This document shows, piece after piece, positions 26,530 to 61,583 of a stretch of DNA of 64,000 nt. Numbering within the stretch: position 1 is the stretch's first letter; each line of letters begins with the position of its first letter. This stretch comes from Macrotis lagotis (Eukaryota > Chordata > Mammalia > Peramelemorphia > Peramelidae): contig NC_133666.1 in the NCBI RefSeq assembly GCF_037893015.1, forward strand, positions 623,268,104 to 623,332,103. Reading direction: 5' to 3'. The position numbers and the translations under genes are program-made. Below the pieces are notes generated by a model. The model was not told the origin of the DNA. It searched no databases and saw nothing but the letters and a program-made list of their open reading frames with translations.

Positions 26530-29260
26530 ATTAACAATAACAATAAGCAACAAGGGATAAAAGAATCCAATTTTGTATTTTTTTTATCAAAGAAATGAGA
26601 CTGGAGCAAAGATTGATTATATAAGTAGTTTAATTATCAAAATGGACTACTCACACAGAGAAAGCCTAGGACAGCCACAACAATCATGGATCCCCACAAA
26701 GACACCTAAAAATTCAATGGACAATTATAGAAAACAGGCAAAGAAAGGAGGAGCTGCAAAGTAGGTCATTAAGAATTGTCTGATATTTTGAAATTTCCAC
26801 AAGATCTTGGATACCAGTCACCTTGTGTAAAATCCTGTGCTTCCAAAGACATACTGGTCATGCACTGGGAGCCCACATCACGAACTTTGCTGCTAGAGAC
26901 TTTTGCTTGGAAACACATATTTTAACTTTCACTGCTTAAAGGGGTAACATTATTATGACTTTTACAACTTAATGAATCCACTTCCCAGGTTTAAGACCAA
27001 GTGGTACCCTAAAACCCACCCCTCAAAGCTTCCAAATACATTCTTTCAGAGTATTTTCCACAAGTTCCCTGGGGGAAGAGGAGGGGGGATTTTAGCACAG
27101 TCAGAAGGTATTGTTCCTCCTGTGTAAACATAAATTACAAAAGCAACACTAACAGCAATAGTAAAAGAAAAGAACTGCAATAAAAAGAAAAATGGATCCT
27201 AAAATAATACTCCTTTGTCCCAATAAAGATTGGAGCTAGAGGGTAATTGGCAGTGTATCTGGCATATATCTTGTGATAATTCTCTAACCTAGATCATGCC
27301 TTTCTCATCAGCATATAGAGGAAACACTATGTGGTATAAGGATGCATTGTACATGCATCCATCATTTCTATTGACCACTTGCTCAGATTGTAGAAATTTG
27401 CTGTAGAAAAAAGTCTGAAACATGATTATAACAACATCAGATTGGTTCTTCATGGTGCAGCCCTTGTGCAGCCCTTATACAACAGGATCAAACAGGTAAA
27501 AGTCATAGTTAACTTCAGGTAAGAGTCATTCAGGTAAAGGTCATAGTAAACAACCAACCATACAGTCAAAATTCTACTTCATAGCCAGACTCAGGAATAA
27601 CCAGGTGGGATACATTCCTTTTCAGAAGGAGGACAATGGGGAAACTGAACCAGAAGGGATCTACCTTGAACTGAGGTCAAAGTCATCCTTTTCAGTTCAA
27701 GGCCACATTCCTCTGAGTAGCTTGTGGCAATGCTTTCGAATGGTAGATTGCTGATTTAATGATTCAGTCCCAAAGGCTATTATTCCAAATGGCCAATTTC
27801 ATCAGTCTTAGCCAAGGTTAGATACAGTTATTTATTCCTCATGGGTTGCAATATGCAATGGGAAGTTTAGCAGCATTCAAACATATATAAAAAATTTCAC
27901 TTACACTCCTTCAATTCTTTTATTCTTCTCAAGTTTAAATTTGTCCTGCTGTAAAGATCAAATCCTTAGAAAACATTTCTATTCTACAGCTAAATTTGCA
28001 GATCTTTAGCAAGTCACATTCATTATGTAGGAATTTTACAACCTAAACTTGATTCATTTTCCAGGACTAGAGCCCTTGCCCTCACAAGTGGTTTTCAGGA
28101 ACCTGGTAAATTTATAAAATAAGTGAAATCTACAGGGATTCCAGAGAAGGGACTGAATCAATTGTCTGTGCCTTCCCACCCCTCTACTCTGCTGTCAGCC
28201 ATGCTCTTTGACATCCTTCTTATGCTGCGTGGAATAAACTAACCCCACTGGCAGATTCTCAACTCCAAGGCAGACTGCTCAGAATGAGCAGAACAAATCC
28301 AATTAAGGTTTTCATTTCATCTCCTCCTTTTTATGCAGTAATCAATTACTAATTTCAAGTTTCAACATTATGAAAATAACTTCAAATGACATACTTTCAT
28401 AAGTTATACCAAATAGTTGTAGATATAAATTCCTCTTAACTTCAGGTAAAGATAGAAATATTCAGTTTGCTAAATGGGCAGTTACTTACAAAAAAAGGTA
28501 AGATTGATAACATAACTGATTTCAAAATAATTTTTCATTGTATTTTAGTATCTATTACTAAACTACTATGACTACTACTACTAAAAAGTTGTTCAACATA
28601 ATTTGTGCAAAATTTTACCAATTTGTATAATATTACATTATTACTCTGTATTTGAAACTTGAAACAAACCTATTACTGATAACTGACTCCAATTCAGTTT
28701 AATGCACTTCCAAATTTCCTTACAGACAACTTGTTATCATTGGCATCATATACTGTTCATAGTTTTGAAAAATTTCAATTAAAATCATGAAATATGAAGC
28801 ACTTACATCTAATTATGGAAAAATAATAATAGTAGTTAACATTTATAGTGTTTGCTCTGTATCAGGCAGTAAACAAAAGTCACCCAATTAATTTTCAGAA
28901 CCAAACATTTTCTCAATTTGTCTTAATGTCAAATAGTTTAATTTATTCTGACTTATTTTAAACATCAAATTAGGAGACACATTTCACTTAAAATGTGACC
29001 AAAATAAAATCACTTATACCATATCAATATTCCAATGGTATAACATAAAACCTCAATTAATGATTTTAATATTATAATACTATATTTTACACAAATGCTA
29101 CATATTTATTTATATGTGCATATATATATTTACATAAAAATTCCTGATATTTCTTAATAAGAGGCTTATCATTTCCAGGCAATCCACTTCCATAAATATG
29201 CAGAAGTGAACAATTGATATTAAGTTTTTAATTTGACTCCAATCACATTTAAAAGCTCAT
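26530..29260. other. Intergenic AT-rich DNA, no gene or clear repeat seen
   Basis: Largely unique-looking sequence with short frames only. Confidence 0.5.
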
Positions 29261-36060: not shown

Positions 36061-38263
36061 AATGAAACTAGCAAAGAATTACATTTACAACACAGAACTA
36101 AACAAATGACAAAATTCATAATTAAAAAAAACTCACGAGAAATAATGAAAAAAGTGAGAAGGAATGGGTACTGGTGTTGCCTTGGATCAGATCGCTAATT
36201 TAAGACTGAGAGACCTTGAAAGGTGAAAGAATGTATACACAGTCCTGGGATTTTAAAACTGCTCAGGATTTAATATAAAAGCCTGCAGAGTGTAGAGATT
36301 AAAATCTTTTTTTCCTCCTACAGAAGCAAAAAGCAGCGTGTAACATACTAGAGGGCAGGAGAATAACAAAAATGACCAGGAGAGGTTTGAATGAGAGAAA
36401 GAGGGAGAGACAGAGAGAGAGGGAGAGAGACAGCCAGGAGAACCGACTGGGCTGAGACTGAAGCAAGTTTGCACATGAGGGGAGTCCATGCCAGGCTTTT
36501 ATAGTCTAGTCCATTCTCTGGGTACAGAAGGGTCAGGAGACTCTGGGCAAAGGGGAAATCTCTCCCCTCTATGTGACTGAAACAAGATAAGAGACTGGAA
36601 GGTGGGGACTGAAAATGAGAAGTTAGTAATTTAACAATGAAACAAAAAGAATCAATTTACATCACAGGAACAGATGACATTTTTCTACCTACACAAATAT
36701 TTCCCCCATCTTCCTCCTCTAACAGAATTTAACAGTGTAAAAAATTGCAAAATTTGTTTACAATTACAGCATCACTATGTCCATAACTCCTCGCATCACT
36801 AGACCTCAAAATATACTATTCCAAAGCAGTTACCATCAAAATAATTTGGTACTGATTTTAACAATATGAAAGCTGTTCAATGGAACACATAAGGCAAATA
36901 TGACCTAGAAGTAATTAATCACAACAGTATAATAGGTTTTTTTAAAAACCCAATGATACAAGGACTCTATTAGAAGAAGGCCTCATTATGTAGACATGAA
37001 ATAGAGGCATAATAGATAGAGTGCTGGACTTGGAATCAGGAAGACATGAGTTCAAATCTTCCCCCAAAGACTTTCTTGATATTTGGCCCTAGGCATATCA
37101 CTTAACCTCTCTTAGTCTCAGTGTTTTTATCAGTAAAATGAGGCAATCTATAGCACTTACTCTACAGGGTTGCTAGGAAGATCAAATAAGGTAATATAGA
37201 TAAAGTGCTTTATAAACCTTTAAGAACTATCTGTATCTGTTTGCAAGTATTATTATAGCAAAGGTCATATCATAAACAAATCAGAGAACAATAGAAGGAG
37301 GTGCCTGAGCCCACTTTCCTTTTTCTCTGGAACTGAACTTTGTTTATTTTGCCTCACCCACCACATCAAATCATAGAACTATTCTTCCACCTTCTACTCC
37401 CTGCCTGCCCCCATTATTCCCAAGGACCCTCCTTCAGAAACAGAATTTAGATTTCTTTCTGTCAAACACTCTGGCCAGTACCTCTATGTGAGGAGTCACA
37501 GATTGTCTAGTCTCTGAGGAAAAGATAGATGTGATTATGAATCCTGGAAAGCTTCCTCCATACACATGCACACACACACTCATTCTTATTAATCCTGGAC
37601 ACTATACTGAATTCTGTGTGTAATGTGTAATGTCTTCACTATCTCTGAGCCTTGTGTAATGTCTTCACTATCTCTGAGCCTTGGACACCCCAAGGATGAT
37701 CTAGGACAGATTTTTGAAAGACTTTAAAGAGTCACATAGAGGCAGCTGGGTGCAGGAGGCCCTGGAGTCAGGAGGACTGAGTTCAAATTTGACCAAATGG
37801 AAAAAAGTGGGAAAGAGGTGTAGTTTTCACATTATGAGAACAATTTGCTCTATATGCAATAATAGGTTCTGAGGTTTAGAGTGGGGCTGAGGAAAGAAAT
37901 CTAGGGCTAAGTTGTTTGCCCCACCTCCCCTCAAACATTCATTTGCCACACCTGGTCTGGGGCTGAGTAGGAAATGTGGGCTAGATGAGGGACAAGGAGT
38001 TAAGGTCTAATTGAAGGACTTCAATTACCACTGTCACCCAGTGGCACTGACTGGTCAGGGATTTTTACCTTCAATGATCTCAAAATATGACTGGATTTGG
38101 AATGGCCCTTAATCTCATGTGGTGAGTAAAATTGTCCCACCTACAATAAAAAAGACTGAATCAGAACTCTAAGTCAATGGTTCCCTTAATGAAGTGGACC
38201 TCAGTTCTTTCTCATGAACTGAGATGTCTTCTCTTTCCAGGGCCTTATTTTTATAGAGTTTGA
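36061..38263. other. Intergenic, no gene seen
   Basis: Contains a GA-rich tract near 36395-36435, a long CORE-SINE and a 23-bp local tandem repeat near 37625-37680 (gtgtaatgtcttcactatct, twice). Confidence 0.5.
37001..37262 (+). mobile_element. Long CORE-SINE-like element
   Basis: tRNA-like head (gatagagtgctggacttgga), core, then the 3' part with agataaagtgctttataaac, longer than the common SINE here. Confidence 0.8.
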
Positions 38264-44815: not shown

Positions 44816-44928
44816 TCAGAGGATCAATGTCATGGTGGTGAAGAGGACATTGATGACCACAGTCTTCATGAATAGTAGTCTCAGGCCCAGTACACTGAGG
44901 AATAGCCTGTTCCCCTGCTCAGGTTCTC
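44816..44928 (-). CDS. TRM: TCR mu transmembrane/cytoplasmic exon with stop codon
   Basis: The last coding exon has acceptor tgtcccctgcag and starts in phase 1. It encodes GEPEQGNRLFLS, then the membrane segment VLGLRLLFMKTVVINVLFTT, then MTLIL and a TGA. The Arg and Lys inside the hydrophobic stretch are the basic residues TCR chains use to assemble with CD3. The LGLRxLFxKTVxxNxL pattern closely matches the TCR delta transmembrane region. The cytoplasmic tail is almost absent, as in TCR delta. The 3' UTR continues leftward, and a possible polyadenylation signal lies about 0.69 kb downstream. Confidence 0.92.
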
Positions 44929-47900
44929 CTGCAGGGGACAATGATCAAAGTCAAAGGGAGTCATCCTGGATTCTAGGGACCTACCTAAAGCAGTAGTAAC
45001 ATTAATCCTGGCCAACAATTATGTAGTGCTTCTAAGGTTTACAAAACAATGTACCAAAAAATTCATGAGACTTTCAACAAAATATGAGATTAATTCTTCA
45101 TTTTATCAATGAGAAAACTAGCTCTGAAAGTTTGAGTGACTTACCCACTGTCACATACATAATAGGTATCATGGATGAGATTCAAATTTAGATCTTCTGA
45201 CTCCTTTTAGGTATATCCTAGGCATTCCAAACTGAGCATGACCAAAATGGAACTCATTACCTTTTTACCATTAATTCACCTGTCTTTTCTCTATACTTCC
45301 CTATTTATTGTCAAGAACCATCATCTTTCTACTCATCATATTCACAATCTTGGCACCATCCTTTATTTCTTTCCCCTCCCTGATACCATGTATCCCATCT
45401 GTTAGGTCTTTTTAATTTTGTGGGGTTTTTCCTCTCTTCTATCCTTTCATATGGTCACCCTCCTGGTTTAGGATTCCATCATTTTTTACCTAAACTATGG
45501 CAACAGTCTCCCACTGACCATGTCATTTCCCAGCTCAAGAATCTTCAGTGGCTTCCTATGCCCTATCCAGGATAAATTGCAATCTTTCACAATCTTGGTC
45601 TAATCTATTTTTCCAAGTTTGATGAACATTATTCCACTTTCATAATTCCATGTTCCAACCCATCTAACCTATTTGTTGTTCCCTAAATCTCCCAGATTCT
45701 TTTGCCCCATCTCTGGTTTGAAAGACATTCCATCTTCACCTCCATTCTTAGAATTTCTATTTTCCTTCAAGGCCCAACTCTTGTACCAGTTCAAGCAGGA
45801 AGTCTTGCCTCATCCCCTTATTTACTGGAGTTCTTTTCCTATTCACATTATCCTATATTTAATTATCTATTTATATGCTTTTTTCCTGCCTTTCCGTGGA
45901 ATGTAAGCTCCTTGAAAGCAAGGACTGTCTTTCAATTTTTAACTGAATCCTAATGTCTTGCACAAAGTAAGTGACCAATAAATATTTGTTAGATTATATG
46001 AACTTGATATAAAATTTGAGATGGAAGAATGAAAAATAACTTGAATGATTTGATGGCAAGTGAATGTAACAGTGATCAAAATAGTGATAGAATAACAGAA
46101 AAACAAGTTAACAGAAACTATTTGAAGTAGATGTTGGCTACAATTGTGGAAGTCCAGGGTAGAAAGAGGAGAATAAAGGAGTAATCAGTATGAGGAGTAA
46201 TTATCAAGAGTGAATGCATCATGGAGGAGCATGGAGAACTTAGTTCAATTTATGGAATATCACATTTCCTGAGGCCTGGGTGACTTTATTCACTTTAATT
46301 CTTGAATTATGATACACTCAGACTATAGCTTATCACACTCTATATGTCTGAAGAGACTGTCAAGTTATTTTTCATTCTTCCACCTCATTCAAATGTCATA
46401 CCAAATTCTTTATCAAAGTAGGACACATAGTAGAATCATAGATTCAAAGAATCATATATTCAAAGAACTTCACTTAGAAAGGACTTGAATAGCTAATTGC
46501 TCCAACCGGGCATAGAAGAAATTGCCTCTAAAACATGCCCTTGAATTATGTCAATCATACTTTGTCAAAACAAATTCAATAAGATGGTCTCATGGCCTCC
46601 TCAGACAGTCCACTGCACATTTGAACAGTACTAAAAGTCATAAACTTATTCCCTACATGATCAAACTTAAATATTCCTCTTGATAACTTGTAGGTTTTGT
46701 CAGTTTCCCCTTCCAGTCACGGTTTTATTTTTCTTTCCTATGAAGCTCTCAGTTTCGATTTCATTAACTTTGCCTTCACACTATGAATCTTTAACTCACC
46801 TATAAGATCCTGCTCAGGGCAAGACTGTTTCTGCTCAGAGACAATCCCAGGGTCTGTTCCAGTATAATCTGAAGTCAGAAACAAATTCTCAGACATAGCT
46901 CTGATCCTCAGTGAGCCCAGGATTGGCCTCCCCAGTGCTCCTGATATCAAGAAGCAAGAAGCACCATCCCAGTCTAGGACCATACCCTAATCTTAGCTGT
47001 CCCCCTTCAATCTTGAACCAATTCCCCACAAGATTCCTATCTGAGGATTATAACCTCTTCCTAGGGCACTCCTTTCAAATACAGGTGGATATTCCAATTC
47101 CTGAATCCTTTTCCCTAACTTAAATCTTTACTCAACATCCAGGTATGCCTTGCCCCAGACATAGCCTTGCACCTGTTTTTCAGCATATCTCTTCTCTATG
47201 TTTCTCTGACCAACCTTTGTCAGCTGGGGCTAATCATACCTGGCTTGTGGGATATATGTGTATCCTTCCCACGGTGATTCACTGAGCAGGTTACTGGATC
47301 ATTCTCACCAACTTTGGCAATCTGGACAGCACTGTAGGTGCCATTGGGCATGGGTACCAGCAAAATGTCCTGGGTTGAGATCAAAGTCCCAGAAGAGGAC
47401 AGGGACACATGGAGCTCCTTGGGGTAGAAGTTCCTGATAAGGCAGGCCACAGCATTCTGACTTCTCACCAAAGATATGCTGGGAGATAGGGGAGCTTGAG
47501 ATCCTGCAATCAAATTATGGCTTCCTGTCCTCTATCTGGACCTAGCCCCATATGTAAGAAAGGCACACATAGGAACAGGATATAACTGTGTAAAACAAGC
47601 TTTACCCCAAATTTCCTGTCCTCCTCTTAGCCTCAATTTGACTAAGTTTATGTGGGTAACACATCCATATGACCAAGTATCTGTGAAAAACAAACCTCAG
47701 CCCCATTTCCTACCCTAAGTCTGAGCTTCAGCCTAGTTCCCATTTCACTAAATCACATGCCTGTGTTCCCTCAAACCTCAATTCCTTTGTCCTTTCTGAC
47801 TTCCCTGACTTCTGATTGACGTTGGTATTGACATGGCTTAGAATTTCATAGCTGAAGGTCTCAAGTCCATGGGTCTTATTTTGATGTGACACCCCCCCCA

Positions 47901-49043
47901 TAGACCCATAGACCTTTAATGGCCTATAATAATCCATCCCTTGTAATTATAGCTCAGAGTGAGAATGTTAACTGTGTATAGTCACAGAGTACACTATGAC
48001 AGAGAAAGGGAACTGGGAGATGGAAAACCTCAATTCAACTTTTGGGCCCAACAGTGACTAACCGTGTGACCCTGAAACCTTAGAATTTCCTTAGGACTAG
48101 AATAGAAAAGGCACTCACCAGGCTCCACTGTTACAATTGTCCCAGGACCAAAGATCAACTGATCTGTGTCATCTCCATTGCCCACTCTCCTTACACAGTG
48201 GTATTGGCCAGAGTCTCTGAGGCCAAGATCCTCAATCTCTAAGGAAATTCTACTACTGGTTTCTTCCCTAGAGATGGTAATTCGGTCTTCAGTGGCAACT
48301 GCAGAAATGCTGTCGAGACTAGTCAATGACAGTGGGGCATGACCAGGAGTCCAATGGTACCAGCCAAGTTTGCTTGTCTTGAACTGGAAGCCAGATGTTT
48401 GGCATTTGAGTTTCAGGGTCTTTCCAGTTTGGTGGGGACGTCCTCCTGACTCCATCAACACTGTCTTTTCCACTGAATGAAGCAGATAGAAGTAGAGTAA
48501 GTAGGGGAAATATATCCATGCCTCCTCATGGGACATAGAGCTTAGATTCCCCTAAACTCCCTCACACCCCAACCCTAACCCATCTTCCCAAGAGTAGCAG
48601 GGGAGGCCAAGATTATTTATCAGATCCAGGGTATCCTAGGGATCTAGTTTGGTCTGGTTTCAAAGGAATTGTCCCTGAGTCCAGAGGCAATCCAGATTAG
48701 CAGAGGTTCTAAATGTCAGAAGATTCCCAAGAGTAGGGAGATAAGGGATCATGGGAATGACAAGATAGATGGGATCAAGGATTTCTGGAATGGGAAAGAG
48801 AGGGTTAACTGAAAATAGTGTTGGCTACAGAAACTCACAACCACACTCAGACCATAGGAAGAATGGAAGCAACAACCCAACTCAAAACTCCCCCATATCC
48901 CTGTAGCCCTCTTGGGATCTAATAAAGTAAGATCCTTCTGCTAAACTTTCCCCATATTTGTACACATTCTCCCAAAACATGAAAACTTACATGGCAACAC
49001 GGTCACTTCTGTTCCAGGACCAAAATTTTCCCACTGAGTTACT
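44816..49043 (-). CDS. TRM: TCR mu germline unit: J - pre-joined V - C - connecting peptide - TM
   Basis: This is the translated part of a TCR mu chain, read on the minus strand as five coding blocks: J 49043-48991, Vmu-j 48472-48119, C 47503-47240, Cp 46868-46800 and TM 44928-44816. Each intron has an AG acceptor and a GT donor, and every junction is phase 1, so the frame stays open from the J segment to the TGA. The C domain, the cysteine-bearing connecting peptide and the Arg/Lys transmembrane segment all resemble TCR delta. The extra V domain encoded already joined to a J in the germline is the diagnostic feature of marsupial TCR mu. From the family, the chain sits in the T-cell membrane, probably paired with TCR gamma and associated with CD3. 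The first V domain must come from somatic V-D-J joining upstream. No disabling change is visible in any exon. The V segment is not in the window. Confidence 0.9.
45095..45215 (-). mobile_element. MIR-like element
   Basis: Complement orientation: atgagaaaactagctctgaa and agtgacttacccactgtcac. It lies in the Cp-TM intron of the TCR mu gene. Confidence 0.6.
45225..45970 (+). mobile_element. L2-like LINE 3' fragment in the Cp-TM intron
   Basis: Order of blocks typical of old L2 3' ends: cagtggcttcctatgcccta then ccaggataaattgcaatctt, later ttgaaagcaaggactgtctt and aataaatatttgttaga. Plus-strand frames here are repeat-derived. Confidence 0.6.
46800..46868 (-). CDS. TRM: TCR mu connecting-peptide exon
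   Basis: A short 69-nt exon, phase 1 to phase 1, with acceptor tttctgacttcag and donor ATAG/GTGAGT. It encodes 22 complete codons reading YTGTDPGIVSEQKQSCPEQD and then LI. It is acidic and polar and holds one cysteine in QKQSCPE, placed like the KSC cysteine of the delta connecting peptide that forms the interchain disulphide with gamma. That partner is inferred from the family. The exon was found by its splice sites and frame rather than by length. It joins the C exon across a 371-nt intron and the TM exon across 1871 nt. Confidence 0.85.
   Translation of the reverse strand: MILEQTLGLSLSRNSLALSRIL
47240..47503 (-). CDS. TRM: TCR mu constant Ig domain (C-delta-like C1 domain)
   Basis: This 264-nt exon has acceptor ttgattgcag, donor CCAG/GTATGA and phase 1 at both ends. 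It encodes 87 complete codons of a C1-set Ig domain. It begins SQAPLSPSIS, like the SQPHTKPS start of C-delta. Cys20 lies in VACLIRNFYPKEL and Cys72 in VTCSVNHRGK. The VAC-L-FYPK and VTCSV-H signatures match TCR delta constant domains better than alpha, beta or gamma, as is known for TCR mu. A possible N-glycosylation site (NGT) is at residues 53-55. The domain lies between the pre-joined V domain and the connecting peptide. No stop or frameshift is present. A TRDC gene is the alternative, but the upstream germline-joined V exon and the J that splices onto it point to TCR mu. Confidence 0.92.
48119..48472 (-). CDS. TRM: Pre-joined variable domain exon of TCR mu (Vmu-j)
   Basis: A single 354-nt exon encodes a whole V domain (117 complete codons, phase 1 at both ends). 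Landmarks are Cys23 (KLKCQTSG), Trp37 (GWYHW), the DSGQYHC stretch with Cys92, and an FGPGT J motif at 107-111 followed by IVTVEP. V, the CDR3-like loop (VRRVGNGDDTDQLI) and J are continuous, with no RSS between them, so the domain is already joined in the germline. The acceptor is cttcattcag and the donor is CCTG/GTGAGT. It splices in frame from the J segment 518 nt upstream and to the C exon 615 nt downstream. In the mature protein it should be the second, membrane-proximal V domain with an invariant CDR3. An old intronless leader remnant sits directly upstream in another frame (separate entry). Confidence 0.92.
48473..48536 (-). pseudogene. Intronless leader remnant upstream of the pre-joined V exon
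   Basis: Starting at the ATG at 48519, the minus strand encodes MDIFPLLTLLLSASFSG, a typical V-gene signal peptide. It runs straight into the V domain but is one frame off from it. There is no leader intron. The region now also serves as the polypyrimidine tract and acceptor for splicing from Jmu. An alternative ATG at 48536 is in frame with the V domain and encodes a hydrophobic stretch (WIYFPYLLYFYLLHS) that could act as a weaker leader in an unspliced, single-V transcript. Confidence 0.6.
48991..49043 (-). CDS. TRM: TCR mu joining segment (Jmu)
   Basis: A 53-nt J segment reading VTQWENFGPGTEVTVLP in the functional frame, with the FGPGT motif and a consensus splice donor (CCAT/GTAAGT) directly after it. 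The last codon is split in phase 1, so it joins in frame to the pre-joined V exon (P-L-E-K-T-V). A 12-RSS lies immediately 5' on the gene strand. In TCR mu this J receives the somatic V-D join and supplies the end of the outer V domain. No second J is seen nearby. Confidence 0.88.
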
Positions 49044-49071
49044 CACGGTAACATAGGAAGGAACCTAAACC
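49044..49071 (-). other. 12-bp-spacer recombination signal of Jmu
   Basis: On the plus strand this reads heptamer CACGGTA (49044-49050), a 12-bp spacer (49051-49062) and nonamer ACCTAAACC (49063-49071). The heptamer keeps the essential CAC next to the coding end. The nonamer matches the consensus at 7 of 9 positions and keeps its central A run and final CC. A 12-RSS on J and a 23-RSS on D satisfy the 12/23 rule. Confidence 0.85.
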
Positions 49072-49084
49072 CCTAATCTACAAA

Positions 49085-50057
49085 GAATTGTCTTTTAGGA
49101 AGGGTAGAGAAACAGGAAGGTGACAGGAAGTGAGGTAAGAGTCCCTGAGGCTGAGCACATGAGAACCTATCAAGGACATGAAGTCCAGGGACAGTTTTCA
49201 GATAAATGTGATGGACTTCAGAATATACAGCTAGGTTAATTTCACAGCAAGGCTCCAGTTAGGCTAGACATTAGTGAAAGGCTTCAAGTTTGCAGAGGCT
49301 CAAATCAGTCCACCACATAACTTGTGGGGTGGTTGAAATAATGACTTCTTACACTCCGTCCTTACTAACTCTATTGTATGAGATTAGTTGATCTATCCTT
49401 GAGCAAAGCCAGGTAATATAGGAGGCTGCTTGAAAGGGAAAGTAACCTAGGATTTATTGGATGATCTGATGATGAGTGTCAAAAGCCATCTGGTGCAGTA
49501 ATGTGTCCAATCCCAGAGAAGCTGGCAGGAGCCCTGGGGAGAATTCTCTTTTTTTTTGTAAAGGGTAGGGGTTTGCCCCAGCAGAGAGGACAACATCTTG
49601 AAAAGCACGATGGTTCTGGCAACTTCCAGTGAACTCTAGTAATGTGCATAAAAACTGAGCAGTATTGCACCACAAAAGATAAGTTGATATTGTCCTAGAC
49701 TTAAAGATTTTGTGAAATGATTCAGATTGTTGAGTATTTCATAATTCAAAAGAGGGAGGATTTGAGAGAAAACACCCCACTGAAGATTACCTAATGAGAG
49801 ACAGGTTAGGAGGAACCTAACCATTGTATTCTGCTCCGAGAGGGCAGACCACATTGATGATTAGCCTATCAAGAGATAGGCTAGGACATGTCTGAGTTGT
49901 CACAAACATATAGGACATATTTGTTAATGCCTGGCATTGATAATGTACCAAGGTGCCTTGTTGATGTGGAAGAATCAAAACCATTTAAGATCAAGAGACT
50001 CTTGCAACAGCCAGACCATCTCCAATAGCCATAATTCCAACACATCAGCACCAGGAA
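49085..50057. other. J-proximal part of the D-J interval, no second J or D recognised
   Basis: Scanned for consensus heptamer/nonamer pairs with 12- or 23-bp spacing. A T-rich nonamer-like run near 49551 has no CAC at the right distance. The 49454-49854 minus-strand frames have no Ig features. Confidence 0.45.
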
Positions 50058-51005
50058 TTCACAAAGGAAATATTATTTGAACTTCAAGAAAACATATATA
50101 ATAGTACAATAATATCTCTCTATCGATTTTGGATTCATCTAACAAAAAGAAGCAAAAAAGGAAATTAAACAAATTTCTGAAGAAACTAGTTAAAAGACTT
50201 ACAATGTCTTTTAAATAGTGTTAATCATAATTTCCCTTGGGCTAAAATGAAACAATACAGTTAGTTTTTTAAACGAAGTTTATTTATCTAGGGTCTTATC
50301 AAAACCCATGGGTGAATGTGGATGCTAAAGCATTTGGAGTTAATATAAGTTTATTATTGATATTTATTTTATGCTCCTTTAAGCATAGTATAATTTCTTG
50401 TTTATTCTTTTTTATTTTTTGAATGTTTTTTTGTTTTGGTACCATGATGGCAAATCCTGCTTTTTTTTTTTGGATTCATTAGATGCATATTAATTTTTTC
50501 CAATCTCCTCAATTTTATTTTGTGTTGCCTAGAGTTCACATAGTTATTAAGTTTCTGAGACCAGATTTCAATTGAGGAAGGGGAGTCTTCCTTATTTCAG
50601 GCTTAGGATCCTTTCCATAGGGCCACCAGCTGCTCTGGGTCTAGTATTATTCAAATGACTTTTCTTTTATATTTAAAGGAGCTTTTCCTGATGACTTATT
50701 GGAATTTGTTTTCCTTTTTTGTCTTAGCTTACATACATCATTTCCTTCATTTTCCTTAGCAACAGAAGAAGGAACAATCTGACATCAAGGTGCTTAATGA
50801 AAGGTTGTTCATCTAAAAACTGTAACATCTTGACATAAAAGATAATATATTTACAAAGCACCTGGAAAAATAGTTGTGTTCTTCGCAAACTGAATATTTT
50901 GTCTCAATGCCTCACTTTTGCAGAGTTCCCTTCCAATCCAGGAATGCACCATTATCATCATGCATCAGTATCATAGGATATTGATCCCTTTGCGGCATAT
51001 TGATA
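50058..51005. repeat. Left copy of a duplicated and partly inverted ~0.95-kb module
   Basis: Positions 50058-50320 are a direct copy of 63378-63642 (for example ctatcgattttggattcatc in both). Positions 50322-51005 are the reverse complement of about 62690-63375 (for example gcttacatacatcatttcct here against its complement near 62950). The switch lies at gggtgaatg/tggatgc. A decayed tRNA-type SINE at 50521-50640 is part of the inverted half. Confidence 0.85.
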
Positions 51006-52010
51006 TGGAAAACAGATTTAGGAAAGATAATTTAAAAATTACTGGAATACCTAAAAGTCATGATCAAGAGAAGAGCCTTGACATCATTTTCAAAGAATTA
51101 CTACAGGGAAATTGTGCAGATATCCTAGAAGCAGAGAGCAAAATAGAAATTGAGATAATCCATTGATCTCCGCAAAAAACGAGATCCAAAAAAAAACAAC
51201 CCCCAAGAATATTATAGCAAAGTTCCAGAACTCCCAAGTCAAAGAGAAAATATTACAAGCAGCCAGAAGGACACAATTCAAATATCGTGGAGCTGTAGTC
51301 AGGATCACACAGGACTCAGCAGAAACTACATTAAAAGCTCATAGGACTTGGAACATAATGTTCTGGAAGGCAAATAGCTTAGAATGCAACTGAGAATCAA
51401 CTACCCAGAAAAGCTGAATGTCCTCTTCCAGGGAAAAAGATGGACTTTCAGTGATCCAGGGGAATTATAAATTTTCCTGTTGGAATGGCCAGAGCTGAAC
51501 TGAAGGTTTGATCTTCAAATACAGGGCTCAAGTGAAGCATAGAGAGTGGAGGAGAAGAGGAAAATAGGAGGGACTTAATGATGATGAACTACATGTATTC
51601 CTGTATAGGAATACATGATACTGATAATATTCATATGAACCTTCTCGTTTAATAGAGCAGGCAGAAAGAGCTTTTATAGATGAAGCACAGGAGAAAACTG
51701 AATTTGAAGATATATATTGTGGTATAAAAATGGAGTCAACAGATAAAAGGGAAATATAATGGGAGAAAGAAAAAGGAGAGGAGGAATAGGCTAAGATATT
51801 TCATATAATAAGATATTTTTTTTACTACAGTGAGCTATTGCAATGATATGGAAGGGGGGAAGGCAAGGGGGAATGAGGGAATCTTTGCCCTCATCAGAGG
51901 TGGCTAGGAGAGGAAATACCATATATACTCAATGGGGTATAGACATCTATAGTAAAAAGGAAAGAAGGGGGACAGGGGGAAGGGGGGTATGTGTGTGATG
52001 GAGGAGAGGA
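50990..52010 (+). mobile_element. L1 ORF1 fragment and inter-ORF region
   Basis: Encodes decayed ORF1 C-terminal sequence: NLKITGIPKSHDQEKSLDII, then KEKILQAARRTQFKYRGAVV and ITQDSAETTLKAHRTWNIMF, in two frames. Similar in order to the intact ORF1 at 55.8-56.75 kb. Downstream is purine-rich inter-ORF sequence without coding potential. Confidence 0.8.
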
Positions 52011-52035
52011 TGGACCATGGCTGGAGAGTGGTCAG

Positions 52036-52735
52036 ATATAACACATTTTCTTTTGTACTTCTTGCAAGGGGCTGGAATTGGATGGCCTGTCTGGGACCAA
52101 AGGGCCAGGTGGATGCTGGGTAAGGGGTGGTATGTGGGTTTGGGGCCTCTTGGCCCCAGGGCTGGAGATCTGTCTGCTGAGCGACTCAACTACCCCAAAG
52201 AAGAGACAGAGTGAAAGGAGAGAGAAAATATAGTTCATGGTAGTAGAGAAGTATGAATGGAGTGAGTTGTGATCAGTAATGGCAATGGTGGAAAAATATG
52301 GAAGTAACTTTTGTGATGGACTTATCCTAAAGAACATGATTCACCCACAACAGAGCTGGTGGTGTTGGAACACAGACTGAAACACATTTTTTATTATTAT
52401 TATTTTCTGGGGGGTGTTGCAGGGCACATGGGACTGGGTGGCCTGCCTGGGGTCACACAGCTGGGTGATTGTGGGATATCTGAGGTCAGATTTGGACCTG
52501 GGGGCTCCTGGCTCAAGGGTCAGTGATCTGTCTGCCACCCAGCTGTTATTGTTGCTATTCTATTTTATTTTGAGTCTTTTTTTTTTTTTGGTTTTTGTAG
52601 GGCAATGGGGTTGGGGTGGCTTGCATGGGGTCATACAACTGGGTGATTGTTGGGTATCTGGGGCCGGATTTGAGCTCTGGTGCTCCTGGCTCCAGGGCCA
52701 GTGATCCATCCACTGTGCCACCTGGCCATACCTAC
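52036..52735 (-). mobile_element. Cluster of three diverged SINE copies
   Basis: Three complement-orientation copies at about 52036-52197, 52383-52545 and 52575-52735. They carry G-rich variants (ggcctgcctggggtcacaca, gggtatctggggccgg) that differ from the other SINEs in the window and agree with one another. They may be a separate subfamily. Confidence 0.75.
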
Positions 52736-53029
52736 AATTATTATTATTATTATTTAATTTTAATTTTTTTCTTTCCCCTTTACTTTATCGCTTATACAGG
52801 TCTATATTTTCTTGGGGGGGAGGGGGTATTATGTTTACTCTTAAACAAGAATATTTTAGTAATGTTTAAAAAAACATTATTTGTACAAAATAAGAACAAA
52901 TAATTAATTAAAAAAGGAAATGTTAGCTTCAGCAATAAGAGAAGAAAAAGAAATTGAAGTAATTAGAATTGGGAAGAAAAAGACAAAACTTCCACTCTTT
53001 GCAGATGACGTGATAATGAAGTACAGTAT

Positions 53030-53650
53030 CAATGTTTGTGAAATTCCTGTATAATAGAAAGAGGTCCCTGACATCCTTCTGGGACCTGAGAAAATCCTTA
53101 GAAATATAAATTTGGCTAGGTGCATTTGGGTCTGAAAATAATCTGACAAGACCCAAATGCTTGACTCTGGGTAAGATTCAGAAATCCCCCTTGTTAGCCT
53201 AATTATCTTGCTGTAACTGTAAAATTCCTTCTTCCTCCCAGGACTGCCTCCCCTTCCCCAGATGTCACTGGAACCATAAGATAGTAAATTTCACTCCCTC
53301 AAACTTGTGGGATGCCTATGAATATGTGACTCCTTCTGTCTCTGGAAATATGTTCAGATATAACACAGAGATCCTGACCCTTTTCCTACTCTGTCTAGCC
53401 CCCCTATCTATACTGAACCATATGTTTACATATGTTTGTAGTAGTATGACAAGTCAATATACCTAACTGCTGTCTTTGCTTCTGTGTCCTGCTTGCTCTC
53501 AGTACCCCTCCCCCCAAAAAAAACACTGTAAAAATCCTATCCCCTAAACACTCAGGTACTGTCTGATTTGGGTAGTCATCATCCCCAGGCAGTCTCCAAA
53601 CTTATCAAATTCTGGTCTCCATCTCACTTTTTGGGTTCAACATTGGTATA
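53030..53650. mobile_element. Solo-LTR-like insertion within the L1
   Basis: L1 ORF2 coding similarity stops after the FADD region and resumes at gagaatcccaaaaaatc. The 0.6 kb between has no L1 similarity and an LTR-like composition: C-rich blocks, and a right end at gggttcaaca of the kind seen at retroviral LTR 3' ends. No internal retroviral genes are present, and clean target-site duplications were not identified. The boundaries are approximate. Confidence 0.45.
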
Positions 53651-53738
53651 CCTAGAGAATCCCAAAAAATCATCTAATAATAATTAGCAACTCTAATAAA
53701 GTCATAGGATGTAAAATAAACCCTCATAAATCCTCAAC

Positions 53739-53744
<6 letters not shown>

Positions 53745-53777
<33 letters not shown>
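53745..53777. repeat. (TA)n microsatellite in L1
   Basis: About 16 ta units that expanded inside the L1 ORF2 fragment. Confidence 0.95.
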
Positions 53778-53778
<1 letters not shown>

Positions 53779-56700
53779 CTAGCAAGATACAGAGCAGAAA
53801 GAGCTAGAAAGAGAAATTCCATTCAAAGTAACCTCAGACAGTATAAAATACTTGTGAGTCTATCTGCCAAGGCAGACTCAGAAACTTTTTGAAAACAATT
53901 ACAAAACACTTCTCACACAAATAAAATAACTGGGCAAACATCAACTGCTCATGCTTAGGTCGAGCTAATATAATAAAAATGGCAATACTACCAAACCAAA
54001 CTATACATTTAGTGCCCTACCAATCAAAATTCCAAAAAAATTACTTTAATGAGTTAGAAAAAGTTGTAAGTAAATTCATATGGAGTAATAAAAAGTCAAG
54101 AATTTCCAGGGATTCAATGAAAGTGCAGAAGATGGTGGCTTAGCCTTACCAGATCTAAAATCATATTATAAAACATCAGTCATCAAAACCATTTGGCTAA
54201 GAAATAGAGTGGTGGATCAATGGAATAAACTAGGTGCAATAGCAGGAAATTATTAAAGTAATCTGCTATTTGATAAACCCAAAGAGTCCAACTATTGGGA
54301 TAAAAACTCTCTCTTTGATAAAAATTATTGGGAAAAATGGAAATTAGTATGGAACAACCTTAGATTAGACCAACATTTCACACCCTGTACCAAGATAATA
54401 TCAAAATGGATACAGGACTTAGACATAAAAACATTATTATAAGCAAACTAGAAGATCATATCTATAGAAAGGGAAGCAGTTTATGACCAAGGAAGAGATG
54501 GAGAACATCATTAAAAACAACCTATAAAATTTGATTACATTCAATTAAAAAGTTTTTGCACAGACAAACTCACTGTAACCAAGATCAAAAGAGATGTAAA
54601 TTGGGAAACAACCTTTACAACTAGTATATCTGACAAAGGACTCATTTTTAAAATACACAGAGAACTGAGTCAAATTAAAAAAAAAGACATTCCCCAATTG
54701 ACAAATGGGCAAAGGATATGCAAAGGTAATTTACAAATTATGAAATCAAAGTGATACAAAGTCATATGAAAAATTGCTCTAAATCTTTATTTATTAGAGA
54801 AATGCAAATTAAACCATTTCTGAGATGCCACCTCACACCTCTCAGACTGGCCAACATGACCGGAAAGGACAATGATCCACTTTGGAAGGGATGTGGGAAA
54901 TCTGAGACACTAATACATTGTTGGGTGGAGCTGTGAACTCATCCAACCTTTCTGGAGAGCAATTTGGACTTTCACCCAAAGGGCATCAAGAATGTACATC
55001 CAGAAATACCAGTACTGGATCTATACTCTGAAGAGATTATGAATAGAAGGGACTCCTGGCCAAGATGGCAGAGAGAAGACAGACACGGTTCTAAAGTCTC
55101 CTGATCTCTTCCCCATATATCACATGAAACAAACCTCTTAAAAGAAATTCGACCCATAAAACCCAGAAAGAAAAGCCAGGAGAAAGAACATGTATCTCAG
55201 GATGTGTCTCTGGCAGCAGCTTTGGCCAAATTCAGGTGGGTGAGTCTGGGCTCAGAGGGAGGATCAGCCCCGGATCAGCCACATCAACAGCTGAATTGGA
55301 ACCAGGAGTCTGAGGGTCTGAGGGCCTGAGAGCCGGACCTGCTGGATCAGAGGTGGGGCTGGACCGTGGGTGCCTGAGTTGCTGGGAGAGCGGAGGCACT
55401 GGTGTTGGAACTGTCCCCCAGGGAGATCCTGGACAGGGCTGGGGGGGGGAGAGTTCTGGAGCAGGAAGGGTTCGGACACCATCCCTGGGGTCCTCTGGTC
55501 TGAGTCCCATTACAACTCAGACTTCTTCCCTAACAAACAAATGCAAACTACTTCAGCCTCAGGCCCAGGTGTGTGAGCAGAAGAACCAGCCCAGCTGAGG
55601 AATGACCTCAGGCCAGGGTAAAGCCTACCATTGATTTAAGGCAAAAGAATTCAATAGCTCCAACCCCTCCCTTCAAGGAAAGGGAGAAGGCCTCAACCAA
55701 GGTCATAAACATTCCAGAGAAAGCAACCAGCACCTCCTACTGGCCAGCCAGAGAAAGTGCACTCAGTGAGTAAAGCCTTTAGCGATCCCAAGCCCCTGTG
55801 AACCAGCCCCTCCCCAACTCAGGTCTTAGCAAAATGAAGAAGGGTCAGCAGAAAGGTGGATCCATCGAAAACTTCTTGGAAGGGAAAGACCCTAACTCAG
55901 AGAGACCTGGAACCTCTGAGAATACAATCTGGTCTTCAGCACAGAAAGACTTCCTTGAAGAAATAAGGAAAGAGTTTAAAAATCAACTGGAAAATTTGGG
56001 AAACACAATTAATACATTGCAACAAGAAAACAAAACGTTAGAAAGTACAATTGGACAAATACAAAATGAGAATAAATCTCTCAGATCTTCAAATGGGCAA
56101 ATGCAAAAAGAAATTAATTTTCTCAAAACATCATTTGGTCAAATGGAAAGCTCTTTCAAAAGTAGAACTGACCAATTGGAAAAGGAGTTGCAAAAGGTAA
56201 ATGAAGAAAACTCCTCCCCCCAAAAAAGAATGGAGTCTACAGAAACTAATGACTGCATGAGACAGCAAGAGTCAGTTAAACAAAATCAAAAAATAGAAAA
56301 AATAGAAGCAAATGTAAAATACCTCATCAACAAAGCCACTGACCTTGAGAATAGATCGAGGAGGGGCAACCTGAAAATTATAGGACTTCCTGAAAACATT
56401 GAAGAGAAAAAAAAGCCTGGACTTAATATTACAGGATCTAGTGATGGAAAACTTCCCTGATATCATGGAATCAGAGGGCAAAATAGTTATTGGAAGAGTA
56501 CATCGATCCCCAAGGAATGTTGTGGCCAAACTCCAGAACTATCAGATAAAAGAGAAAATCCTGCAAGCAGCCAGAAAGAAACAATTTAAATATCAGGGAG
56601 CCACAGTAAGGATCACACAGGACCTGTCTGCATCAACATTAAGGGATCGAAGGGCCTGGAATGTGATATTTCGAAGAGCAAGGGAGCTTGGAATGCAGCC

Positions 56701-57399
56701 AAGAATCTACTTTCCTGCAAAGCTGAGCATTCTCTTCCAGGGAAAAAGATGAACATTTAATGAAATGGAAGAATTCCAAAAATTTCTGATGAAAAGACCA
56801 GAGCCAAACAGAAAATTTGGACATCAAACAGGAGATTCAAGAGACACATGAAAAGGTTAAAAAAATGGTGGTGGTAAAAGGAAAAAAAATGTAATCCAAT
56901 AAGTTGAAACTGGCTATATCCCAGCATGGGGGGAAAAAGATTCTCATAAATCTTGAGAATTGTAGCTCTAACAGAGAGAATATACCTAGCCAGAAATGAT
57001 GGATATTCATAACCTATCCATGAGACTGCTATCTAAAGAGATGTAACTGGCTTTAACCCCACTTGGGAGAAAGACCCTAATAACTCTCAGGAATTTTGAC
57101 TCTGTTCGATAGAATATACTGAATTAGAAGGGACAGACACTCAGAATTTTCTATGACTTAGACAGAATGATCTAAAAAACACCACCTCCTTAAAAAGGGG
57201 GACAAGAAAGAGACTGGAGGAGGGAGGGAAGAGAATGGGGTAAATCTCATTATAATAAGAGATACAAAAAACCTATGGTAATAGAGGGGAAGAAGGGAGC
57301 AGAGGAGAAACACCTGAATCTTCTTCTCATAAGACTTGGCTTAAAGTCAACCTACACATACTCAGTTAACTTATAAAACATCTAACCTTTCAAGTATTA

Positions 57400-57640
57400 A
57401 AAGGGGAAAAGGGGAGGGGGGATGGAGAAAGGGAAGGGAAGTGGAGGAAAAACTGGGAAATAACAAAAGGAAGGGAAGGGAAAAAGGGAAAAAGGGAAAG
57501 GGGAAAGAAAGGGGAGGGTGTGATATAGGAGGGCAAATACACTGAAGGGGGTGTTATTCAGAAACAAATTACTGGGGAAAATGGATAAACGGGGGGAGAA
57601 AGGGGGGAAATAGAAATGGAGGGAAGATAGCACGGAGGGC
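57400..57640. repeat. Purine-rich inter-ORF tract of L1
   Basis: A/G-rich stretch between ORF1 and ORF2 of the 55-58.7 kb L1. The minus-strand 87-codon frame here is compositional. Confidence 0.85.
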
Positions 57641-57808
57641 AATAAAGAATTAGTAATCATAACTTTGAATGTGAATGGGATGAACTCTCCCTTAAAATGT
57701 AAGCGAATAGCAGAGTGGATTAAAAACCAGAATCCAACAATATGCTGCTTACAAGAAACTTATTTGAAGTAGAGATACATATAGACTAATGGTAAAAGGT
57801 TGGAGCTA

Positions 57809-57962
57809 GAGGCGGCTAGGTGGTATAGTGGATAAAGCACCAGCCTTGGTGTCAGGAGTACCTGGGTTCAAGTCCGGTCTCAGCCACTTAATAATTACCT
57901 AGCTGTGTGGCCTTGGGCAAGCCACTTAACCCCATTTGCCTTACAAAAAACTAAAAAAAAAG
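57809..57962 (+). mobile_element. tRNA-derived marsupial SINE inside L1 ORF2
   Basis: Complete copy. Flanked by aaaaggttggagc and aaaaagtttggagc. Confidence 0.9.
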
Positions 57963-58734
57963 TTTGGAGCAAAACATATTTTGCTTCAGTTGAAGTAAAA
58001 AAAGCAGGGGTAGCAATCTTTATCTCAAAGCAGCAGCAAAAACAGATAGTGTTAAAAGAGATAAGGAAGGAAACTTCATCCTCCTAAAAGGTACCATAGA
58101 CAATAAAGTCATTTCAATATTGAATATATGTGCACCCAGTGGAACAGCACCCAAATTCTTAGAGGAGAAGATGAAAGAACTACAGGAAGACATGGACAGC
58201 AAAACACTACTAGTGGGAGACCTCAACACTATTGTTCTATTAGAAACCAGGAGGGACGGGATTTCAGGGAAACCTGGAGGGATTTGCATGAACTGATGCT
58301 GAGTGAGATGAGCAGAACCAGAAAAACACTGTACACCCTAACAGCAACATGGGAGTGATGTTTTACCTTGAAGGACTCCCTCATTCCATCAGTGCAACAA
58401 TAAGGAACAATTTTGGGCTGTCTGCAAAGGAGAGTGCCAGCTGTATACAGATTAGGAGCTGTGGAGTTTGAACAAAGTTCAAGGACTATTCTCTTTAATT
58501 TAGAAAAAAACAGATATCTTATTGTCTGATCTTGTCACCTCTTAGACTTTTCTTCTTTAAGGATATGATTTCTCTCTCATCACACCCAATTTGGATAAGG
58601 TACAACATGGAAACAAAGTAAAGACTGACAGCATAATTTCTCTGGGGGGGTGAGGAGAGGGAAGCAAGATTGGGGAAAATTGTAAAACTCAAATAATATC
58701 TTTAATAAAAATTAATTTAAAAAAAAGAAATCAT

Positions 58735-59365
58735 GAATAAGGGTAAAAATATCACTTTAACCTAAATATTCCTAGCAGCCCTGTTTGTGGTGGCAAAGAA
58801 CTGGAAATTAAGTAAACATCCTTCAATTGGGGAATGGCTTAACAAACTGTAGTATATGTATATCATGGAACACTATTGTTCTATTAGAATCCAGGAGTGA
58901 TGGGAATTCAGGTAAGCCTTGAAGGAGTTGTATGAATTGATGCTGAGAAGGATGAACAGAAACAGAGAAACATTCTACACCCTGATAGTGGCATGGAGGT
59001 GATGATCAACCTTGATGGAATTGCTCATTCCATCAGTGCAACATTCAGGGACAATTTTGGACTGTCTGTGATAGAAATTACCTTTGTTTCCAGAGAAAGA
59101 ACTATGGAGTTTAAAAAAAAAAAGACCAAAGGCTATTTAATTTATGGGAAAAAACCATTATCTTGTTATGTAATTTTGCCATCTCTTATACTTTATTTTT
59201 CTTCCTTAAGGGTATGATTTCTCTCTTATCACATTCAACTTAGATTGATGTATACCATGGAAACAATTTAATGACTAACAGACTGCCTTCTGTGGGTGGT
59301 GGGGGGAGGGAAGCAAGATTAGAGGAAAAATTGTAAAACTAGAAATTAATAAAACATTTAAAAAA
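58735..59365 (+). mobile_element. L1 3' tail
   Basis: Shares with the 58230-58730 tail the series cactattgttctattagaa, gatgctgag, ttgctcattccatcagtgca and the terminal ggaagcaagatt near the A-rich end. A second, separate 5'-truncated insertion directly after the first. Confidence 0.8.
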
Positions 59366-59389
59366 TTAAAAAACTCTTGATTTTCATCA

Positions 59390-61170
59390 AGGTTTTTTTT
59401 TGTCTCAAGCAGGGTAATATCATCTTGGACCTCTTCAGTGGAGACAGAAGATTCAACCATACCCATATCTTCTAAGTCCAATCTTTTCAATTATATTCAA
59501 TCCTGTAATTATCCTAAGAGAAGTACAAGTCTCAAGAATTATAAGTATTATATCTTCCCTTTTAGAATTGTATACAATTTGATGGTCCTGACTAAAATTT
59601 GCTTTTCTTTGTTTTGTTTTTTCCTTCCCCTTTTCATTTGCCTTTGGCAATTGAATTTTCAGTTCAGTTCTGGTCTTTTGACCAGGACATTTTGGAAGTC
59701 CTCCATTTTGTTGAACATTCATCTTTTCCCCTGACAATATATGCCTAATTTTTCTGAGTAGTAAATTCTTGGTTGTAATTCCAGGTCTTTTGTCCTCCAA
59801 TATACAGTATTCCAGGTCCTTCTGTCCTTCAGTGTTGAGGCTGCTATGTCCTGTGTGAGTTTGATTGTGTTTCCTTTGTAATTAAATTGCTTCCTTTTTT
59901 GTTGCTTGCAAGAATTTTTCCTTTGAGAATTCTAGAATTTGGCTATAGCAGTCCTTGGAGTTTTGATCCTGGGGTCTCTTTCTGGAGGGGTTCTGTGTAT
60001 TTTTTCAAAGGCTATATTGTCTTCTTGATCTAGCACATTTGGACAGTTTTCCCTGATAATTTCCTACATGATGGTTTTCAGGTTCTTTTTTATTTATCTA
60101 GACTTTCTGGCAATCTGATGATTTGAAAATTATTTCTTCTATATCTATTTTCCAGGAGGTTTGTGATTCCTAAAAGGTACTTAATGTTTTCTTCAATTTT
60201 TTCCATCTTTTTTTTTGTTTGATGGAATCTTGTAGTATCATAGATTCACTTGTTTGTATTTATTCAATTCTAATATTTAGGATTTTATTTTCTTCAATTA
60301 ATTTTTGTGTTTCCTTTTCTAGTTGGCTATTTTTACTTTCAATGGATTTAATTTCTTTGGTAAATTTTTCATAATTTTCTTGCATGACTCTCCTTTCTTT
60401 TTTCCATTTTTCTTCTTCCTCTCTTCTTTGGTTTTTAAATTCTTTTTTAGTCCCTTTTATGAGATTTTGGATTTAAGACCAAGTCAAAGACTCTTTTGAG
60501 ACATTCCCTGTGAGTAATTTTTCACTGATTTCTTCATCCAACATGGCATTATTATCATCTTTATCTGTAAAGTAGTTTTCTATAAGTGAGCATTCTTTTA
60601 GCTATTTTGCTCATCTTTGTTTGTTTTTAACTCTGCTCTTTGGGTATAGGATGTATAGAGCCAAGCTTTTTATGCTGGGGCTGGTGTCTTATCCCTGGTT
60701 TGTCATTGGCCAAGATGTTGCCTGTGCAGTCTAGGCCTTGTCTTTGCAGAGGTTTATTTTCTCCTTTATTTCCAGGTTCTACCTATGCAGTGGTTTGTTC
60801 CCAACCCAGTCCTGTCTTTTGCCCCAGTGTTCCCAGGGATCAGACTTTGTTTGGGGTTAGTTTGCTGTCTAGCTCCCAGGACCTATGCTGTTGTTGAGTT
60901 GTTGGGACCTTGACTGCAAGTGTGGCTTAAAACCTCCCCCTGCCTTTCCCACTCTCCTACCTCCCTTGGATTTACTTCTCCTTTTCCCCCAAAGAGACAG
61001 AACTTCACCAAACATTCTCCACAATGTCTACCATTGAAAACTTCTTTGGATCTTCTCTTTTTCTTGGTGGGATCTGTAATTTTAATGTCAGTGCAGAGGC
61101 TTCATTTATCTTTGGTAGGGAAAAGTTCTAGGAGCATGTTAGCTTCACAGTGCCATCTTGGATGCACCCT
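59390..61170 (-). mobile_element. Inverted L1 5' end (5' UTR and ORF1)
   Basis: Ends on the right with gtgccatcttggatg, the complement of the L1 start motif. Minus-strand sequence continues through the 5' UTR and degenerate ORF1. It stands tail-to-tail with the L1 tail at 58735-59365 and lies between Jmu and Dmu. Confidence 0.75.
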
Positions 61171-61507
61171 GGAAATTCCCTTGCACTATATTTTAAAATG
61201 AAAAAGTGATTATTAGCACCTGGCCTCTGAATTTGGCCTTTAGTTCATAATGCAATAGAGAATCACTTGGAAAAATTGGAATGTGAAGAAAACTTAATGA
61301 GAAACTCTGCTTGAGTTTGGGTTATATGACTAGAAAGGAGGTGATAGAGGAGAAAATTTTAAAATTATTTTGCTAATTAGTAATTATTGATTACCAATTT
61401 TTTCTGTGCTGATGAATAGAAAAGAACCTTCTGCATTACATATACTCCGTGTCTGAAGGTAGTCATAAGTAATCTTATTCAGTCCCAAAGCTCCACCTTT
61501 ACATAGT

Positions 61508-61546
61508 GGTTTTTGTAGTATGAAGTTCAGGAGATGCATCACTGTG
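61508..61546 (-). other. 23-bp-spacer recombination signal, 3' side of Dmu
   Basis: On the plus strand: nonamer GGTTTTTGT (61508-61516, exact consensus), a spacer of exactly 23 bp (61517-61539) and heptamer CACTGTG (61540-61546, exact consensus). A perfect nonamer and heptamer at exactly this spacing is very unlikely by chance. It should recombine with the 12-RSS of Jmu. Confidence 0.93.
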
Positions 61547-61555
61547 TTTCCCCAT
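61547..61555 (-). other. TRM: TCR mu diversity segment (Dmu)
   Basis: A 9-bp D segment, ATGGGGAAA on the minus strand, with recombination signals on both sides: a 12-RSS on its 5' side and a 23-RSS on its 3' side in the minus-strand sense. This is the usual layout for TCR D segments and allows V(23)-(12)D(23)-(12)J joining. The orientation agrees with Jmu, 12.5 kb away. In the three frames it reads MGK, WG or GE, with no stop. It is too short for any open-reading-frame search and was found from the signals. Confidence 0.88.
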
Positions 61556-61583
61556 CACTTTGACTCAGGCCTCAACCAAAACC
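61556..61583 (-). other. 12-bp-spacer recombination signal, 5' side of Dmu
   Basis: On the plus strand: heptamer CACTTTG (61556-61562), a 12-bp spacer (61563-61574) and nonamer ACCAAAACC (61575-61583, 8 of 9 consensus). The CAC abuts the D coding end. It should pair with the 23-RSS of a Vmu segment lying further right, outside the window. Confidence 0.9.

Follow-up and report, generated by a model that had tools for sequence, protein, structure and literature searches.

What kind of antigen-receptor chain is encoded by a run of short minus-strand exons in the genome of the bilby, Macrotis lagotis, and is this copy still fit for use? TCR mu is a three-domain T-cell receptor chain of marsupials and monotremes, and it defines a third mammalian T-cell lineage. 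To our knowledge, it is absent from placental mammals. The DNA analysed here (the window) comprises 64,000 nucleotides of the assembly GCF_037893015.1 (contig NC_133666.1, here C9, forward-strand positions 623,268,104 to 623,332,103). It is about 95% probable that the window holds the D-J-Vj-C part of a complete TCR mu (TRM) cluster. Five V-to-C sets were found in this genome, this being the 3'-most.

A preliminary description of the window had placed D, J, a germline-joined V (Vj), C, connecting-peptide (CP) and transmembrane (TM) exons on the minus strand in transcription order, and every coordinate was reproduced to the base. The D segment (ATGGGGAAA, window positions 61547..61555) is followed by a recombination signal sequence (RSS) with a 23-bp spacer (61508..61546; CACAGTG/ACAAAAACC), which is a perfect match to the consensus (heptamer 7/7, nonamer 9/9). 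On its 5' side lies an RSS with a 12-bp spacer (61556..61583; nonamer GGTTTTGGT 8/9, heptamer CAAAGTG 5/7). The J segment (VTQWENFGPGTEVTVLP, 48991..49043), with a gt donor at 48990, is preceded by another 12-bp-spacer RSS (49044..49071; nonamer GGTTTAGGT 7/9, heptamer TACCGTG 5/7). All of these elements are on the minus strand, and the spacers follow the 12/23 rule, as had been proposed. The J signal is correct but weak, and is absent from the output of the threshold RSS scan for the window; the neighbouring cluster has the heptamer TACTGTG at the same place. The signals flanking the window D give a composite score of 29. When 60 sequences of 64 kb were generated with a first-order Markov model and one strand of each was scored, none reached this value. 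The best random element over all 60 scored 22, and chance RSSs were therefore ruled out.

The 12.5-kb interval between D and J (window 50000-61200) contains many repeat-like stretches and an L1 ORF1-like remnant. This remnant is carried on the plus strand in two overlapping frames (55786..56749), with Transposase_22 and Tnp_22_dsRBD domains above the cut-off in 56384-56749. Only L1 ORF1 domains exceeded the cut-off in a Pfam scan of 8 of the 67 listed window ORFs. The corresponding interval of the neighbouring cluster is longer, and its repeat set is partly different.

Downstream of J, also on the minus strand, the Vj exon (48119..48472, 354 nt) has the C-terminal end FGPGTIVTVEP, its V domain being already joined in frame to FGPGT in the germline. 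The region directly 5' of it (48473..48536, minus) contains an ATG that is considered below. Then follow the C exon (47240..47503, 264 nt), which encodes an Ig C1-set constant domain; the CP exon (46800..46868, 69 nt), with one Cys (QKQSCPEQ); and the TM exon (44816..44928; LGLRLLFMKTVVINVLF), which has an R and a K inside the membrane segment and runs through a stop codon at 44818-44816. Acceptors of the Vj, C, CP and TM exons are cag, and donors of J, Vj, C and CP are gt. The lengths of the Vj, C and CP exons are each divisible by 3. When spliced, J-Vj-C-CP-TM forms a single open frame in which every junction is phase 1, and the earlier reading of stop-free, phase 1 splicing is borne out. 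The translation runs from VTQWENFGPGTEVTVLP-L-EKTVLMESGG... to ...TTMTLIL-stop.

Several minor features accompany these exons. A donor-like gtaaat directly after the TM stop was read from the sequence, as was a candidate 3'-UTR exon (window 44315-44125), with an acceptor ttcag, then GAGAACCTGAG, resembling the start of the TM exon, and further on an AATAAA at 44130-44125. On the 3' side of the cluster, a degraded antisense scrap resembling the Vj end lies at window 37443-37493 (+). An equivalent scrap lies 3' of the neighbouring cluster (C9:623455164-623455217, +), with 29 bp at 96.6% identity to window 48187-48215. A weak Ig-like match at window 28967-29053 was dropped (E 0.064, with stops around it).

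The rearranging V of the cluster lies outside the window, within the 200 kb that were read upstream of it. It is located at C9:623386111-623386401, 56 kb 5' of the window D and in the same orientation, and has a leader exon, an intron and a 23-bp-spacer RSS (CACTCTG/ACAAAAACC). Between it and the window D are D-like segments at C9:623356722-623356736 (composite score 26), C9:623348358-623348374 (score 25; counterpart at C9:623515387-623515403) and C9:623335767-623335782 (score 28), each with a 12-RSS on the 5' side and a 23-RSS on the 3' side. Together with the window D, which is the 3'-most, the cluster has four D-like segments, all with a counterpart in the neighbouring cluster. A search of the plus strand found no D-like segments.

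This arrangement suggests how a receptor chain would be produced. During thymocyte development, V (23), one or more of the four D-like segments (12/23) and J (12) would be brought together by RAG. The rearranged VDJ exon would be spliced to the fixed Vj exon, and then to C, CP and TM. Judging from the anatomy and from the opossum receptor, the product would be a V-Vj-C membrane chain with an Arg/Lys TM segment, assembling with TCR gamma and CD3. We infer rearrangement, expression, pairing and signalling in the bilby. Opossum TCR mu pairs with TCR gamma at the cell surface (2021 structure paper, as cited in the available part of PMC7615758). In bandicoot thymus, 6 of 1319 ESTs are TCRM.

The identification as TCR mu, which the preliminary description had proposed, is upheld by structural matches and by a phylogeny of C domains. 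The best solved relatives of the spliced protein are the opossum TCR mu chains 7k0x (E 7e-108), 7k0z (4e-105) and 7l15, spanning E 7e-108 to 2e-94; the alignments to 7k0x and 7k0z cover domain 2 and C over 204 residues. TCR delta chains come next, from E 3e-38. The top protein match is P0002 of Isoodon macrourus (84% over the full length, E 3.7e-140), whose residues are continuous across the predicted Vj/C, C/CP and CP/TM joins, so that it is collinear with the CP and TM exons. There were 33 homologous proteins, 32 of them marsupial by species name, and the weakest match is a falcon protein. By source name, P0002 is a ‘T-cell receptor delta chain’, while many others are ‘Ig heavy chain Mem5-like’ or ‘immunoglobulin alpha-2 heavy chain-like’. 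In the light of the phylogeny, both kinds of label seem to be misleading.

In the C-domain tree, from which six near-duplicate TRM rows had been removed beforehand and P0042 was left out, 25 TRM rows are separated from 11 TRD rows by one branch with support of 98/89. The same split was recovered in 96% of 200 bootstrap trees, the program warning of one long branch, that of the falcon row. In this tree, C of the window falls on the TRM side; it is 70.9% identical to the C domain of opossum TCR mu (7k0x) compared with 32.1% to TRDC of the same genome. The wider organisation is also that of TRM: a rearranging V with a 23-RSS, D and J segments with RSSs, a separate germline-joined Vj and one C. 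Five V/Vj-C sets are arranged in tandem on C9, all on the minus strand and unlinked to TRDC (C4:183287608). In addition, the V resembles IGHV more than TRAV/TRDV, since the V of the window cluster matches copies at C1 438-440 Mb with E values down to 1.3e-17, compared with a best value of 4.3e-9 for V copies on C4. The C1 copies are probably IGH, and those on C4 TRA/TRD.

A piece of an immunoglobulin heavy-chain gene, as the automatic names of many relatives would have it, is highly improbable. In its favour, the V is VH-like and its next-best matches in the genome lie at the presumed IGH copies on C1. Against it, in place of several CH domains there is a single C1-set exon followed in one open spliced frame by a connecting peptide and a TCR-type charged TM, and the solved structures ranking next to TCR mu are TCR delta chains. 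The automatic names look like mis-annotation. A query with the window C over the window and 200 kb upstream returned only TRM C exons, although such a query would miss a distant CH exon.

A divergent TRD locus or a TRD duplicate has just as slight a chance of being correct. The source label of P0002, the nearest named relative, and the position of TCR delta chains as the next closest solved structures would fit it. However, the 98/89 branch, the low identity to the bilby's own TRDC and the location of the latter on another contig all speak for TCR mu, as do the germline-joined Vj and the tandem clusters, which are TRM features in the available text of PMC7615758. Clustering of the C domain inside TRDC and linkage to the TRA/TRD locus had been named beforehand as observations against TCR mu, and neither was seen.

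The TCR mu cluster in the window is part of a larger array. Genome-wide, five V copies were found on C9 (623838634, 623792391, 623743992, 623537431 and 623386111), and in the same order each has a partner among five open Vj-C sets (623802247, 623761823, 623701659, 623465982 and 623316223). All are on the minus strand, and the window cluster is the fifth. The span from the first V to the last TM is approximately 0.53 Mb, with D and J read for clusters 4 and 5. Two decayed Vj-C sets with stops (C9:623557798-623559091 and 623406425-623407690) are 89.8% alike to each other, and a class-III V follows each of them about 21 kb further 3'. Their nearest relative is cluster 2, which they match over 2.4 kb including non-coding DNA, compared with 0.6-0.7 kb for cluster 1, 0.5-0.65 kb for cluster 3 and less than 300 bp for clusters 4 and 5.

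A tree of Vj and C sequences, built without the falcon protein P0034 and the partial sequences P0026 and P0029-P0033, divides the clusters into three groups. Clusters 3-5 make up one of them, cluster 1 and cluster 2 the others, and all three include other marsupials; the tree has some open forks, and its bootstrap was unsettled according to the program. From position and grouping, the cluster order would be I - II - III - decayed II - III - decayed II - III. Alternating tandem duplication of classes II and III is reported in the opossum (PMC7615758, in the part available). The bilby array suggests that the same type of duplication occurred here, the two final clusters having class II partners that are now decayed. 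Segments, signals, frames, phylogeny and the order of clusters are established here.

The array also has MOG-like sequences on its 3' side, where 13 V domains of this type are found (C9:622314765-622887342, 0.38-0.95 Mb 3' of the window). These are 45-59% matches, two of them with stops, and the best MOG match (86%) lies on C5 instead. The genome contains 81 MOG-like matches, a count that includes other relatives; none is found in the window or in the 200 kb upstream of it. One further MOG-like domain is located inside the TRM locus (C9:623617171), between clusters 3 and 4. For the opossum and the devil, the available texts name a MOG gene at this side and give no array (PMC7615758 for the devil).

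A different kind of TCR copy was encountered on C1. The sequence at C1:493600315-493600521 (+) is a processed copy of a TRD transcript (J-C-CP-TM), without introns and open in frame as far as the TM end. It suggests a past germline retroposition of a TCR transcript in this marsupial lineage. Read by eye, a weak J-type 12-bp-spacer RSS has apparently been left just 5' of the J of this retrocopy. It is therefore more likely to have originated from an unrearranged J-C transcript, and was rejected as a germline-rearranged TCR and as a precedent for the origin of Vj.

The preliminary description had judged that the window cluster looks intact and expressible, a view that holds with two qualifications. 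It has no stop, frameshift or broken splice site, but a conserved start is out of frame and the C domain is evolving approximately neutrally and carries the change F11S. The start concerned is that of a Vj-first form, which is implied by proteins whose leader reads directly into Vj. Seven marsupial proteins (P0002, P0005, P0006, P0008, P0009, P0019 and P0026) begin in this way, six with MDGLxLL... and one with MNVLSLL...; those other than P0002 look like gene models. In the window the homologous ATG, 49 nt upstream of the first complete Vj codon, does not share the Vj reading frame. The same is true in 5/5 bilby clusters, a comparison that is fair for clusters 3-5 only, since the placed leader proteins are all within the class-III group. 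Loss of the start is not unique to the bilby, as four dasyurid models (P0010, P0012, P0028 and P0029) have I where that M should be. A second ATG in the window copy, 66 nt upstream of the first complete codon of Vj, is in frame and accompanied by a hydrophobic stretch, so a short form could still be made from this copy.

Selection differs between the domains. Comparison of the window cluster with cluster 4 gives dN/dS of 0.27 for V, 0.24 for Vj and 1.0 for C. As these ratios indicate, V and Vj are under purifying selection. For the C exon, dN is 0.15 and dS 0.149, and nearby aligned DNA diverges by ~14-18%. Amino-acid differences between the two copies amount to 13/117 in Vj and 23/86 in C (p 0.005). 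For an opossum pair, in which the sequences are crystallization constructs, the values are 0/117 and 7/87 (p 0.002). Two changes in the C domain of the window, F11S and G63A, fall where 30/30 other TRM rows show no variation. Presumably, the Phe lost by F11S occupies a position that lies within the CH1-CL contact in antibody CH1. Given these two changes and the dN/dS of 1.0, the window C domain may be under relaxed constraint.

C-domain changes peculiar to one lineage number 10 in the window copy, 7 in cluster 4 and 2 in the bandicoot, and the count for cluster 4 means that acceleration extends beyond the window copy. Changes on the bilby lineage and the bandicoot lineage stand at 17:2 in C and 11:8 in Vj (p 0.06). 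A general TRM rule that C always outpaces Vj was rejected, as C has more differences than Vj in only 8/16 pairs compared. Counter-examples are Petaurus (Vj 37/117, C 6/87) and Antechinus c/d (Vj 17/117, C 5/88). Relaxed or divergent selection in the bilby is consequently a hint, not a rule.

These data leave some room, perhaps a minor share of the probability, for a TRM cluster that is decaying although its sequence looks intact. Such a cluster would splice and rearrange, but its C domain would fold or pair poorly, and its share of the repertoire would be small. The C dN/dS of 1.0, close to the divergence of adjacent DNA, the changes at two otherwise invariant positions and the weak J heptamer are in keeping with decay, and the same array already contains two decayed Vj-C sets that are class-II-like. 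Against it stand the undamaged frame and splice sites, the constraint on V and Vj, and the C changes in cluster 4, which make the acceleration wider than the window copy. A complete cluster remains the preferred reading. Slightly more doubtful is the idea that the architecture of TCR mu is changing in the bilby lineage as a whole, with the homologous start of the two-domain, Vj-first form of other marsupials lost in all five clusters, and with class-III C domains, ordinarily the conserved surface for the partner chain, neutral or faster while V and Vj are constrained. If true, the C domain may be diverging together with a TCR gamma constant partner particular to this lineage.

TCR mu is indeed an established marsupial receptor: its genes have been identified in the bilby, where 9 TCR constant genes were counted (PMC11239497, in the part available). 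The window cluster is a further TCR mu copy in a species from which TCR mu was already reported. A literature search found no cluster map of bilby TCR mu, and for bandicoots earlier work inferred only two clusters, according to the available text of PMC2275272. A segment-level map from the bandicoot and bilby order fills the gap left by that inference, and with it transcripts and pairing become simple to test in these animals. It leaves the concept of the receptor as it was.

Among known systems, the closest is P0002 of the northern brown bandicoot, which we take to be an order-mate of the bilby. The two share 84% identity across Vj-C-CP-TM and the same splice joins; P0002 differs in having an in-frame leader, MDGLPLLILLLSLLHS, directly before Vj, where the homologous ATG of the window is out of frame. 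The TRD of the same genome is only distant kin in its C domain (32%), and lies on another contig. TCR mu of Monodelphis domestica (7k0x, 7k0z and 7l15) has the same J-Vj join (TVLP-LEKT) and the same Vj and C domains, with the V-Vj-C architecture in 7k0x and 7k0z, although Vj and C are only ~71-72% identical to those of the window. Published opossum clusters have three D segments in class III and two in class II (PMC2275272, in the part available), so the four D-like segments here are one more than published for class III. In the opossum, according to the available text of PMC7615758, six clusters are complete and two partial; in the bilby, V and Vj-C are both present in five, and two further Vj-C sets are decayed. 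The same text describes the TRM locus of Sarcophilus harrisii, which resembles that of the bilby in its three ancient cluster classes, its mix of complete and partial clusters and the presence of MOG on the 3' side. It differs in containing nine clusters over ~1 Mb, in contrast to the ~0.53 Mb of the bilby locus, and the bilby has several MOG-like matches.
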